Shown here: positions 27,635-36,987 of the stretch, piece after piece
How the letters are laid out: each line of letters begins with the position of its first letter
Numbering within the stretch: the first letter of the stretch is position 1
Source of the DNA: an uncultured Eubacteriales bacterium
Lineage (GTDB): Bacteria > Bacillota > Clostridia > Peptostreptococcales > Anaerovoracaceae
Length of the DNA stretch: 64,000 bases
Assembly (NCBI GenBank): GCA_900318105.1
Contig: ONJG01000001.1
Span: 18,309-82,308, forward strand
Direction: 5' to 3'
The notes under the pieces: generated by a model
Database searches by the model: none
Told to the model about the DNA's origin: nothing
What the model saw: the letters and a program-made list of their open reading frames with translations, nothing else
Translations under genes and position numbers: made by a program

Positions 27635-27737
27635 TAAGAATTGTTCAGATTTGTTTACGCGCGATCTCTAACAGCGTATTCTCTGAACTACAAAACAGTA
27701 TCTATAAAACAGCTGACGACAGAAAGAAGTTACAGTG

Positions 27738-29033
27738 ATGAAAAAGAGAATACTAACATTGTTTATTGCGATTGCAGTGGTGTTTACGGCTGTTCCGTAC
27801 ACTTCATTTGCTGCATCGAAAATAAGCATTAATGACAAGGCGGTTGTCTACACACCGTCAAGTGATTACAGGAGCGGAGACTGCATTCTGACGTCCAGCA
27901 GGAACATGATCAGAAGGGCAGCGATACTGAGGGGGTCCAAGGCGTGGTCCAAGATCACGAATGCGACACTCAGAAAGGATGCTACTATCTTCGGTCTGCT
28001 CTGGCACAATTTCTCTCATACGACAGACGGACTCTGCTACTCTGTTTCAATGAAGAAGTTCACGGGCAAGACAGAAAAGGAGAGAATCAGGGAGTTCGAG
28101 AGACTGATAAAAGAGCATCCGGAAGGCATAGTCGTCTGGGGCGCAAGATCATCCATCTTCGGTCAGCACGGTGTACTGCTGACGGGCGTTAAGAACGGAG
28201 TCCCGTATGTGGCAGACTCTGCGAACAATCTCGGAAGATACAATCACGGCATAGAGCCGTGGAGCAAGAGCACCATGTACAGCCCGCTCAGATGCACGCA
28301 GTACTGGTACATCAAATCCGTAAGCCTGGGCAAGGGCAGAAAGGCTCCTGCAAAAGGCAAACCGCTGGCGCCTACATCAGCCGGCAACGTAAACACAGCT
28401 TCAACGCTCAAGATAAGCGATGCGAGCAAACCTTCAAGCGTGACGGTAGGGAACGGATTTGTCCTGACCGGCGTGATTGAATCCAACTACAGAATTAAGG
28501 CCGTAACTGCCTCAATAGTCAACAGCAAGGGCAAGGCGGTAATTCAACAGTATGTAAAGCCGAACTCATGGAATTACAACTTGTCGGGAGTGGATCCGAA
28601 AATCAGATTCGGTACGCTGTCCGCCGGCACATACAGATACAAGGTGGTCGCATCGGATGAGAAAAAGACAGCGACGCTTATCGACAAGACATTCAAGGTA
28701 GTTCCAAAGAAAGCTGCCGCAAAGTCGACTCTTGCGATTAAATCGTACAATGTACCGACAAAGGTTAAAAAAGGATCACCTTTCTACATGAAAGGCATAA
28801 TCACATCCAACAAGACCATAACAATGGGTACCTGCCAGATACTTAACTCAAAGGGAAAGGTAGTGCTCAGTGCAGGGACAAGCAACAATTCAAAGAAGTA
28901 TGATATCTACAAAAAGCTTGATACCAAGATTAAGTTCGGCAAGCTTGCAAAGGGAACATATACGTACAAGATAATTGCGAGGGACAGTTCTCAGACGAAG
29001 ACCCTTGTAAGCAGGAAGTTTACAGTAGTGTAA
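27738..29033 (+). CDS. Secreted papain/C39-like protein with two C-terminal repeat domains
   Basis: A 431-residue exported protein. Signal peptide at residues 1-26 (AVPYTSFAA cleavage area). The N-terminal domain has Cys49 (SGDCILTSSRNM), His144 (FGQHGVLLTG) and Asp160 (VADSANN), an order and spacing fitting a cysteine peptidase of the C39-like fold; this is inference. After a Pro/Ala/Lys linker come two related ~100-residue beta domains (about 215-315 and 325-430), both ending in KIRFGTLSAGTYRYKVVASD-like strands, as in wall-associated hydrolases. It is a single gene between terminators. Confidence 0.75.
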   Translation: MKKRILTLFIAIAVVFTAVPYTSFAASKISINDKAVVYTPSSDYRSGDCILTSSRNMIRRAAILRGSKAWSKITNATLRKDATIFGLLWHNFSHTTDGLCYSVSMKKFTGKTEKERIREFERLIKEHPEGIVVWGARSSIFGQHGVLLTGVKNGVPYVADSANNLGRYNHGIEPWSKSTMYSPLRCTQYWYIKSVSLGKGRKAPAKGKPLAPTSAGNVNTASTLKISDASKPSSVTVGNGFVLTGVIESNYRIKAVTASIVNSKGKAVIQQYVKPNSWNYNLSGVDPKIRFGTLSAGTYRYKVVASDEKKTATLIDKTFKVVPKKAAAKSTLAIKSYNVPTKVKKGSPFYMKGIITSNKTITMGTCQILNSKGKVVLSAGTSNNSKKYDIYKKLDTKIKFGKLAKGTYTYKIIARDSSQTKTLVSRKFTVV

Positions 29034-33363: not shown

Positions 33364-34704
33364 TTATTTGGTGAAGGTCCTGGTCTCTGAGGCAATTCCT
33401 TCGCTTTCAATAATATCTGCGTCCTCATATTCGTTTGTGAGATGATTCTTATCGAGTATGTGCATGATGAGCCCGAGCAGCATGCCGACTACGGCGGCCA
33501 GGCTCATACCTTTGAGCTGAACCTGTCCGAGGTTGATCGCAATGCCGGAGAGGCCGACAACGAACACCACGGAAGTAAGTGCGAGATTACGGGCTTTTGA
33601 GTAGTCAATCTTAGAGTCTACCATGAGCCTGATTCCAGAAGCTCCTATCATTCCGTAGAGCAGGAAGCTCACACCGCCCATTACAGGGCCCGGAATGGTC
33701 TGGATAAGGGCCGAAGCTTTACCTATGAATGAAAGGGCAATTGAGAAGAGGGCGGCGCCTCCGATTACCCATACGCTGTATACTTTTGTGATGGCCATTA
33801 CGCCGATATTCTCGCCGTATGTGGTGGTCGGACAGGATCCGAAGCATCCGGAAAGTGCTGTTGAGAATCCGTCTGCGAACATGGATCTGTGAAGACCGGG
33901 GTCTTTGAGCAGGTCCTTACCTACAACCTCAGATGTTACAACCTGGTGGCCTATGTGCTCAGATACTACAACCAGTGTGGCGGGCACGATGATCAGAATG
34001 GCCTGCATGTTGAACTTAGGTCCCTGGAATGCAGGGAGTTCAAATATATGCGCCGATCCTATTGATGAGAAGTCCACAAGCCCGAGCACAAGCGCCAGGA
34101 CGTAGCCGACTACTATTGAGATCAGAATGGCTATGGCGCTTGCAAAGCCTCTGTAAAGAACTCCGCCGAATATGGCGAGGAGCAGTGTGACGAGGAATAC
34201 AAGCAGGACTTTGGGGTCGATGTTCTGGGCCATCTGCATGTTTTCATCAAGAAGGCCCGCTGTCTGAGCTGCAGAGCCTGCGAGTTCAAGTCCGATAAGT
34301 GCCACTACGGGACCCATGGCTGCAGGAGGCAGGATGGCATCTATCCATTTGGTGCCGACCATCTTTATGATTCCTGCCACGAGACACATCAGAAGTCCCG
34401 TTACTATGAAGCCTCCGAGCGCATACTGGTATCCGAGGCCCGGCGTATTTATTACGATAAGGGCAGGGGATATGAATGCAAATGATGATCCGAGGTAAGC
34501 GGGAGCGCCTCCCTTGGTGACAAAAATAAAGATAAGTGTTCCGATGCCGTTCATGAGTAAGGCGATGGAAGGACTTATCCCGAGAATGTAAGGTACCAGT
34601 ACCGAAGCACTGAACATTGCGAATGTGTGCTGGATGGAGAGCGGAATTCCCTTTGCGAGGGGGAGCCTCTCCTGAATCTGAATGATTTGCCTCTTGGTGG
34701 ACAT
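33364..34704 (-). CDS. uraA: Uracil/xanthine permease (NCS2 family)
   Basis: A 446-residue nucleobase transporter with about fourteen spans. UraA-like signatures: QHTFAMFSASVLVPYILG near residue 25, the APAYLGSSFAFISPA segment, SEHIGHQVVTSEVVGKDL and CPTTTYGENIGVMAITKV, the substrate-site stretch. Uracil is the most likely substrate; xanthine is possible. It transcribes away from selD with its own terminator. A TTGACA on the minus strand near 34760-34770 may be a -35 box, but no good -10 was found at usual spacing. Confidence 0.9.
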   Translation of the reverse strand: MSTKRQIIQIQERLPLAKGIPLSIQHTFAMFSASVLVPYILGISPSIALLMNGIGTLIFIFVTKGGAPAYLGSSFAFISPALIVINTPGLGYQYALGGFIVTGLLMCLVAGIIKMVGTKWIDAILPPAAMGPVVALIGLELAGSAAQTAGLLDENMQMAQNIDPKVLLVFLVTLLLAIFGGVLYRGFASAIAILISIVVGYVLALVLGLVDFSSIGSAHIFELPAFQGPKFNMQAILIIVPATLVVVSEHIGHQVVTSEVVGKDLLKDPGLHRSMFADGFSTALSGCFGSCPTTTYGENIGVMAITKVYSVWVIGGAALFSIALSFIGKASALIQTIPGPVMGGVSFLLYGMIGASGIRLMVDSKIDYSKARNLALTSVVFVVGLSGIAINLGQVQLKGMSLAAVVGMLLGLIMHILDKNHLTNEYEDADIIESEGIASETRTFTK

Positions 34705-34915
34705 ACGACCTCTCTTTCTTGTTCAGAAGATGTTTGTATATTTAACTATCGTTACTATTTTACACAGACATGTCAAAAAGACAATAGAAATAACACAATA
34801 TATTGTATAGAAAAAGATAATTAGGCAGGCTAAAACACTATATGGTGTTGGCTGGCGACCCTCAAATCCTTCAAAATGCTTGGATATATGGGTCCCCGGT
34901 GTTATTATTATCGTG

Positions 34916-36109
34916 ATGGGTAAAGATAATTCATATGAAAAAAGAATAGAGGAAGCAAAGGAGAAGCTCGCCTGTCACATCGAGCCGCCGGGAAGCCATG
35001 CACATACTCCGGTCAATGAACGGAAAACTGCAGCAGCTGCGGCTGACACTGATGGCAGGGTGAGGCTGACTCAGCTTACTGATGCCGGTGGTTGAGGCGC
35101 CAAATTAGGGCCGGGTGTCCTTTCGGATATTTTGTCAGCTCTTCCCAAGATAAGCGACCCTCGCATCGAAGTCGGCTTTGAAAGCAGCGATGATGCCTGC
35201 GTTTACAGGGTGAGTGATGACCTTTGCATGATTAATACAATCGACTTCTTTCCGCCTATCGTGGATGATCCGTACACCTTCGGGCAGATTGCCGCGGCCA
35301 ATTCCCTGAGCGACGTATATGCCATGGGAGGAGAACCAAAACTCGCGATGAACCTGCTCGCCATACCGGGAGACCTCCCGAGAGATGCCATCAAGGCCAT
35401 ACTCGAGGGCGGCAATGACAAGGTAAACGAAGCGGGTGCGACCATAGTCGGAGGCCACAGCATAGAGGATAAGGAGCCGAAGTACGGACTTTCCGTCACG
35501 GGCTTTGCGCATCCGGACAGGGTGCTGAGCAACAGCGCGGTTGAGGGAGACCTGCTTGTGGTGACCAAAAAAATCGGAACAGGCATACTGACCACAGCCG
35601 CAAAGGTGGATCTTCTGACTGATGAAGAGAACGCCGAGATGGAGCGCACCATGTCTACGCTCAACAAATATGCATATGAGTCGCTGGATGGGGTAAAGGC
35701 TGACGGCTGCACCGACATAACAGGATTTGGTCTGATCGGTCACGGAGCCGAAATGGCCAGGGCAGGAGATGTGACTCTCGAGATTTATTCATCCAAGGTT
35801 CCGGTCTTCGATAAGGCAGTTGAAATGGCCACGATGGGCATAATACCTGCCGGAGCATACAGAAACAGGGAATATACAAAGGAAGATGTAATGGAATATC
35901 TCTCGAAGTCTCCGGATAAAGACGCAAACCTAAGGGCCAGGGTGGACTGCCTGTACGACCCTCAGACATCGGGTGGTCTTCTGATAGCCGTTAAAGAAAA
36001 TCAGCTGGACAGACTGCTGACTCAGCTGAAAGAAAAGGGCTGTGAATCATCCGTGATAGGGATGTTCAAAGCCCGCAAAGGTAAATATTATGTAGAAATA
36101 CATGACTAA
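34916..36109 (+). CDS. selD: Selenide, water dikinase with in-frame UGA (selenocysteine)
   Basis: SelD makes selenophosphate from selenide and ATP. The frame from ATG 34916 runs VRLTQLTDAGG, then TGA at 35093-35095, then GAKLGPGVLSDILSAL and the whole conserved remainder (TIDFFPPIVDDP, VGGHSIEDKEPKYGL, DITGFGLIGH, YDPQTSGGLLIAV). The UGA falls where E. coli SelD has catalytic Cys17, and Lys63 matches Lys20, so residue 60 is Sec; the product is 397 residues. An automatic call would split the gene into a 71-codon piece and a 5'-truncated SelD. A hairpin 35095-35121 (AGGCGCC with GGTGTCCT, one bulge) could be the SECIS. The ~50-residue N-terminal extension is unusual, so a later start cannot be excluded. 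The 3' end overlaps the convergent lysR by 4 bp. Confidence 0.95.
35095..35121 (+). promoter_or_regulatory. Candidate bacterial SECIS hairpin in selD
   Basis: AGGCGCC (35095-35101) can pair with GGTGTCCT (35114-35121) with one bulged U, closing a 12-nt loop that contains GGG. It lies immediately 3' of the Sec UGA, where bacterial SECIS elements act. The fold was drawn by eye. Confidence 0.4.
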
Positions 36110-36987
36110 ATTGATTTGTTTTCCACGAATTTGACGAATGCATCGGCAGCAGGGGACAGAGATCCGCTTTTAAGCGTAATCATGTAGAAGGAACGGTTCT
36201 CATCAAAATCCGATATTTCCGATATGCTGACGCGCCCATGCAGCCTGTCTGCAACCTTTTCCGAAATGATGGATACTCCGAGCCCCGACTCAACGCTGCG
36301 AATTATGCTGTTAAGGTCATCAATAAGAGCAGCGAATTTCATTTCCCCGTAATCAAGACCGCGTTCGGCTGCCGCAATCTCGAAGTTCTTTCTCGTGGCA
36401 GACCCGGTCTCACGCCATATGAACGGGTATTCAAAGGCCTCTCTCAGGCTTATTTTTTTATCCATATTATACGAAAGCGGTGCAATGAGCACTGACTTGT
36501 CCGTGCTGACAAGCGTGCTTCTTATGGATGTGTGCTTGACCTGGTCTCCGACGAAGCCGATCTCTCCGCGCCTGTCGAGGATATTGTCTATCACGCTTTG
36601 CGTGTCTGAAAGAGATACATAGAATTGAACGGAATCGTACTTGTCTCTGAACTTCGCAAGAATCTCCGGAAGGAATGTGACTCCGGGGATTGATGATGAC
36701 TGAATCTCCAGTACGCCGTCTATGCTTTCGTAGGAGCTTTTTATGGCATCGACTGCCTGAGCCCTGGCGTTGATCATCTCAATTGCATATTTGTAGAACT
36801 TCTCTCCCTGGAGAGTCATCTCAACCGAGCGGCTCTTTCTGTCGAGGAGCTTGACACCGAGCTCCTTTTCGAGATTCTGAATATGCGTACTGATGGTGGG
36901 CTGCGTAAAGAAAGACGCATCAGCAGCTTTGCTGAAACTCTTGTATCTTACTACGTTTACAAAGGCTTCGATTTGTTTGAAATCCAT
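36106..36987 (-). CDS. LysR-type regulator, probably selenium-metabolism associated
   Basis: A 293-residue LysR protein: N-terminal winged helix (FKQIEAFVNVVRYKSFSKAADASFFTQPTISTHIQNLEKELG, residues 3-46) and periplasmic-binding-like effector domain (about 90-290). Adjacency to selD matches the clostridial LysR group named for selenium metabolism. GGAGGT precedes the ATG. It lies 27 bp after thrC on the same strand, so it may be read from the thrC transcript; its stop overlaps that of selD by 4 bp. Confidence 0.88.
   Translation of the reverse strand: MDFKQIEAFVNVVRYKSFSKAADASFFTQPTISTHIQNLEKELGVKLLDRKSRSVEMTLQGEKFYKYAIEMINARAQAVDAIKSSYESIDGVLEIQSSSIPGVTFLPEILAKFRDKYDSVQFYVSLSDTQSVIDNILDRRGEIGFVGDQVKHTSIRSTLVSTDKSVLIAPLSYNMDKKISLREAFEYPFIWRETGSATRKNFEIAAAERGLDYGEMKFAALIDDLNSIIRSVESGLGVSIISEKVADRLHGRVSISEISDFDENRSFYMITLKSGSLSPAADAFVKFVENKSI

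Follow-up and report, generated by a model that had tools for sequence, protein, structure and literature searches.

A predicted selenocysteine-containing selenophosphate synthetase with a conserved cysteine-bearing N-terminal arm in a genus of Anaerovoracaceae

The selD gene, encoding selenophosphate synthetase (selenide, water dikinase), is located at positions 34916..36109 (+ strand) of the 64,000-nucleotide stretch of DNA analyzed here (referred to as the window), and its frame of 397 residues ends in TAA and contains a single in-frame TGA at codon 60 (35093-35095). The locus raises the question of whether this codon is read as selenocysteine (Sec) or is a defect, and of what the N-terminal extension ahead of it represents. 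The sequence-only reading had the SelD frame running open through the TGA, and the coordinates, the frame and the codon were all found to be exact.

The window SelD scored 369.2 bits against the TIGR00476 selD profile (cut-off 125), which places it in that family, and the Pfam AIRS and AIRS_C domains were both matched, giving the two-domain fold of the AIR-synthetase type. A model of the protein was obtained with AlphaFold2 (mean pLDDT 90), and the top Foldseek matches of the predicted fold were the SelD structures 2yye, 2zod and 3u0o. When the protein was aligned with Escherichia coli SelD (3u0o; E 1.5e-64), U60 fell over the catalytic Cys of the GCGCK motif and K63 over its Lys, residues which we take to be Cys17 and Lys20 in the E. 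coli numbering; the earlier placement of the TGA at the catalytic Cys, with the essential Lys three residues on, is thereby borne out. The glycine-rich loop of the window SelD reads GGUGAK, with the Lys three residues past Sec, and G59, position 60 (Cys or Sec) and K63 were invariant in an alignment of 37 sequences. In the list of table 11 open reading frames (80 aa or more), only 35132-36109 (TTG start, 325 aa) appears at selD, so that the gene is indeed split by standard calling, as had been predicted. Since this frame opens at 35132, a caller blind to Sec misses the front 72 codons along with the active-site loop. The Sec codon therefore matters for annotation, given that standard calling drops the active site.

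Conservation of the TGA was analyzed in a genus sample of 47 genomes, in 43 of which SelD was found; the closest named records to the genus include Mogibacterium sp. and Candidatus Crickella caballi MAGs. The SelD search of the 47 genomes gave no match in G030 and G031, and weak matches alone in G032 and G039. The Sec60 codon was TGA in 41 of the 43 genus SelD genes, TGC in G019 and a Cys codon in G037, whose SelD is divergent (49% identity), lacks the arm, sits on a very long branch and was left out of the alignment. Outside the genus, TGA was present at this codon in 47 of 48 SelD loci, as well as in 18 of 20 family- and order-level genes, the latter chosen by hand from a longer match list. 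The locus thus has an in-frame UGA with conserved coding sequence on both sides, at the site where homologues have Cys, as is expected of a selenoprotein gene. When the window was scanned for other readthrough genes (frames of at least 90 aa that contain a single TGA and hardly overlap larger open reading frames), 13 candidates including selD were obtained, and selD alone showed a plausible Sec context when they were judged by eye.

The apical stem-loop of a putative bacterial SECIS is located at 35107..35121 (+ strand), 16 nt after the UGA, with a 5-bp stem and the loop CGGGU (35112-35116). The sequence-only reading had pointed to 35090-35140 for such an element, and the hairpin found there fits a published model, though it is not the minimum-energy fold. 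The bSECIS model, as given in excerpts of a 2026 review, comprises a loop of 3-9 nt, a stem of 4-16 bp, a G in the first two loop positions, a spacing of 16-37 nt and an MFE of at most -7.5 (PMC13188914). These constraints were applied by hand, and the window hairpin conformed to them, having a loop of 5 nt with G second, a stem of 5 bp, a spacing of 16 and an energy of -8.7 kcal/mol for 60 nt folded with the hairpin enforced. The hairpin alone has -4.5 kcal/mol, and when the 42-nt stretch from the UGA was folded without constraint, another structure was preferred (-13.4 kcal/mol). An Rfam search of the region returned a single match, to an unrelated family and below the cut-off.

The five pairs of the window stem can form in all 41 UGA genes, and the loop is CGGG followed by any base; one pair alternates between G-U (24 genes) and A-U (17 genes), and one G-C becomes G-U once. 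Two outer pairs, formed in 35-36 of the 41 genes, are T-T mismatches in the window. Codon choice within the hairpin was nearly fixed (CCG in 41/41 genes, GTC in 40/41, GGR in 41/41, and ATA for 38/38 Ile). At codon +9, 25 of 41 genes use CTA, a codon that accounts for 23 of the 1168 Leu codons at codon +20 and beyond. The A of this CTA pairs with the ATA codon in relatives; the window has TTA and CTT in place of ATA and CTA, and so is without that pair. The hairpin codons seem to be chosen for pairing, and the Fisher p values for this codon bias are overstated, as they treat related species as independent. Synonymous variation over the 8 codons after the UGA was the lowest of 381 intervals; with 9 codons the stretch ranked second of 380, and with 14 codons third of 375, the lower intervals overlapping the post-UGA stretch.

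The presence of SelA, SelB and tRNA-Sec elsewhere in the genome had also been expected. The source genome of the window (G000) is a 1.48-Mb MAG of 92 contigs, 76.6% complete, and selA (556 bits, matched in two parts of a single frame) and selB (379 bits) were found in a row on its contig C13, both over the cut-off. No full tRNA-Sec over the cut-off was detected in this incomplete MAG, and its sub-cut-off matches proved to be tRNA-Pro and tRNA-Gly. Contig C13 opens inside a tRNA-Sec gene, of which the 3' 65 nt are present with the UCA anticodon intact at bases 3-5, and over its first 106 bases the contig matches the tRNA-Sec-selA region of G017 with 99% identity. The expected machinery was thus recovered, with tRNA-Sec as a 3' fragment that includes the anticodon. 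A second tRNA-Sec copy is present in some relatives and may be a reason for the assembly break at the start of C13. Such second copies are located at G043:C4:50743-50835 (L145) and G020:C3:5528-5620 (L142), just downstream of glycine/sarcosine/betaine reductase component C genes (NF040746, NF040747), and, by eye, beside other genes in G023 (L146) and G015 (L147).

Among the 41 genomes with a UGA-containing selD, selA and selB were each over the cut-off in 39 (neither in G013 or G020), and tRNA-Sec reached at least 57 bits in 39 (the exceptions being G000 and G028). The missing selA and selB of G013 and G020, and the missing convincing tRNA-Sec of G028, are probably gaps of draft assemblies. 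Matches to tRNA-Sec of 46-50 bits were ~85 nt long, many of them in genomes with a far better match; they were taken as not tRNA-Sec, so that the tally of 43/47 genomes over the cut-off is probably too high. A second, short SelB appeared to be encoded at contig ends in several genomes (SelB-like proteins of ~360-420 aa). The example from G005 was identified as elongation factor Tu (TIGR00485, 719 bits), and the remaining ones are taken to be elongation factor Tu too. Three genomes, G030, G032 and G039 (95%, 65% and 67% complete), have selA and selB over the cut-off and no clear SelD, probably owing to assembly gaps. The yqeB gene, a marker of selenium-dependent hydroxylase maturation, is on the same contig as selD in G000, outside the window (C48:11505-12269). 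GrdA was present in 19 of the 47 genus genomes and not found in G000; SelU was over the cut-off in none of the 47, with short weak matches in 30.

The relative G019 carries a natural Cys-SelD (TGC; G019:C24:14056-15252, L118) in which the N-terminal arm described below and its Cys are kept. No selA, selB or tRNA-Sec over the cut-off was found in this genome, which is 77% complete, and two matches to yqeB were obtained. In the tree, its selD is nested on a long branch among Sec-containing genes, and Cys appears to have been derived from Sec. In its hairpin, a weaker G-U replaces one inner pair and one outer pair is missing, as would be expected of a relic, in this one case. G019 is a compact example of apparent Sec loss with SelD kept, having a Cys-SelD and yqeB and no sel genes found.

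In the window, a gene for a LysR-family regulator, whose family (NF040786) bears the name selenium metabolism-associated, lies at 36106..36987 (- strand), convergent with selD and overlapping it by 4 bases, and is a candidate selD regulator. The uracil permease gene uraA (33364..34704, - strand), divergent from selD, is context only and stands outside the Sec system. Around selD in 42 other genus genomes, the LysR gene (at least 50% identity) was found in 32, uraA in 35 and both in 28, some of the fetched flanks ending at contig ends. Farther away, 27735-29033 encodes a protein of 432 aa that weakly matches a T9SS sorting domain and a large-adhesin family, odd for the lineage; it is possibly a surface protein.

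The N-terminal extension noted in the sequence-only reading was divided into an arm of residues 1-25 (MGKDNSYEKRIEEAKEKLACHIEPP; 34916..34990, + strand), with a predicted helix at 5-18 and the conserved Cys20 (34973-34975), and a linker of residues 26-48 (34991..35059, + strand), whose length and sequence vary between species. The ATG at 34916 is preceded by 35 open codons and, at 14 nt, by a putative weak ribosome-binding site, GGTG (34898..34901, + strand); a GGTG-like sequence was also seen before selD in a number of relatives (by eye, uncounted). The arm Cys column was kept in 41 of the 42 aligned genus SelDs (41/43 in all) and is absent in G034. Between the arm Cys and the Sec position there are 22-64 residues in the 41 genes, and in 37 of these the nearest usable ATG, as chosen by a script, is 16-19 codons before the Cys, with a motif like IDEKKLKEAKEKLACHIEPP. 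The Cys is preceded by 24 residues in G023 and by 5-8 in G005, G013 and G036; the short-armed genes are scattered in the tree and do not form one group. The pN/pS ratio was 0.13 for the arm, 0.14 for the core and 0.63 for the linker, in 37 of the 42 aligned sequences (G034, G013, G005, G036 and G023, with arms absent, short or differently aligned, being left out). In the AlphaFold2 model the block with the helix at 5-18 has pLDDT 73-81 and residues 21-40 have pLDDT <50; the underlying alignment contained the arm in only 5 of 37 rows, and the genus rows L042 and L043 begin at a Met inside the linker.

Outside the genus, the arm was not seen by eye in 67 SelD genes, namely 47 of the 48 loci (L074, whose front end is unreadable, being left out) and the 20 family- and order-level genes. 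In a few of them a single Cys occurs close to the N-terminus, as in L050 and the same-family G054 (MTMSCSDQNGPRLTDM), and a simple N-terminal Cys may thus not be unique to the genus. An arm profile built from 21 of the 41 Cys-bearing arms matched SelD in 38 of the 47 genus genomes at E <1e-8 and did not pick up the short arms of G005, G013 and G036; the next match was at 0.039, and matches from there on were taken as chance. Nothing in Pfam matched the 47-residue N-terminal stretch at E values up to 1, and it thus contains no recognizable fused enzyme domain.

A sequencing error or nonsense mutation in a Cys-type selD could be argued from the single stop in an otherwise open frame, from the draft MAG as its source and from the TGC of the relative G019; recurrence of the TGA in the genus and at the outside loci, the synonymous constraint on the hairpin 3' of it, and selA, selB and part of selC in the genome leave this reading a negligible chance, and the first of these excludes both an error and a nonsense mutation. 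The frame, the position of the codon, its conservation, the machinery genes and the constrained hairpin, all read from the DNA, indicate that the TGA is a Sec codon, as originally proposed, and that the selenophosphate synthetase encoded by the window selD is almost certainly a selenoprotein in its own right, its residue 60 (35093..35095, + strand) being Sec. Translation might instead start at GTG 35060, with the frame upstream left untranslated: other SelDs begin at about that point, and by eye a strong Shine-Dalgarno sequence is missing before ATG 34916. This start is highly improbable in view of the pN/pS of the arm, which is as low as that of the core, and of the regular spacing of the ATG before the Cys in most Cys-bearing genes. 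The extension is thus real, with open codons ahead of its ATG and purifying selection on the arm, and the arm is best described as a translated, selected part of SelD, in which a short predicted helix with a conserved Cys at its end is carried on a disordered linker.

For the role of the arm, docking is our first guess and a thiol relay to Sec60 our second. A docking peptide for SelA-tRNA or for selenocysteine lyase, with the Cys structural, is a plausible reading that falls somewhat short of probable. It leads because formation of the SelA complex in E. coli and binding of the Sec lyase in T. brucei are both reported to require the SelD N-terminus (PMC7595633); a predicted helix on a flexible tether also agrees with it. 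However, SelDs outside the genus manage without an arm, and G019 keeps the arm with its Cys without selA, selB or tRNA-Sec over the cut-off, which counts against a role with SelA only, although that genome is incomplete and the loss of its sel genes may be recent. It is more doubtful that the arm is a tethered thiol which carries selenium (as perselenide) to Sec60 or resolves oxidized Sec60. In favor of a thiol, the Cys is retained while its spacing to Sec varies so widely, the arm persists in G019 where Sec has become Cys, and none of the 43 genus SelDs has a Cys at the equivalent of E. coli Cys19 or at Sec-3, the latter being Cys in 18 of the 48 outside loci. Nevertheless, G034 is without the arm Cys, and the Cys19 equivalent is also missing in 45/48 and 18/20 of the outside-genus SelDs, which were seen without an arm; no such helper is thus generally needed, and the arm Cys is not simply a general replacement. 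That the helix-Cys arm takes selenium from a donor protein and passes it to Sec60 is unlikely; if true, selenium could bypass free selenide.

Judged from what is known of the family, we infer that SelB with Sec-tRNA-Sec would bind the hairpin just past the UGA and deliver Sec to residue 60, within the flexible glycine-rich loop that bears the catalytic Cys of other SelDs, and that catalysis would proceed there. The selenophosphate formed would go to SelA for selenoproteins, SelD included, and, since yqeB is present in G000, probably also to selenium-dependent molybdenum hydroxylases. For the arm, the likeliest role seems to be either to dock a protein that donates or accepts selenium, or to present the arm Cys near Sec60. 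The selenium form used by SelD in the cell, and its donor, are incompletely elucidated according to the 2026 review, as excerpted (PMC13188914). With its Cys fixed and its linker free in length, an arm shared across the genus offers a handle on this question, as it lends itself to deletion or mutation in laboratory SelD assays.

Sec-containing SelD is a well-known type, and the Sec part of this locus is ordinary; the accessible part of a 2006 survey gives 38 SelD selenoproteins and three Sec-to-Cys events (PMC1794560). A literature search covering titles and the starts of abstracts found no description of such a SelD arm, which would be a modest new variation on Sec-SelD, seen in this genus alone among the genes compared. 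Like the bacterial Sec-SelDs of TIGR00476, the window SelD has Sec at the catalytic Cys position, a SECIS-type hairpin after the UGA and the AIRS fold; unlike them, it adds a 25-residue Cys arm and a linker before the Sec loop. Extensions of prokaryotic SelDs are described in the accessible text of a 2015 study as fused domains (NADH dehydrogenase-like-SelD and NifS-SelD), always on Cys-SelD except for one Geobacter NifS fusion (PMC4561486). The window protein shares with these fusions an additional N-terminal sequence on SelD, but its arm is short, is without a Pfam match and stands on a Sec-SelD. The N-terminal region of trypanosomatid SEPHS2 is likewise flexible and bears the catalytic loop, and in T. 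brucei the Sec lyase depends on it for binding (PMC7595633); SEPHS2, however, is a eukaryotic Cys enzyme, and its front end is likened to the arm by description.
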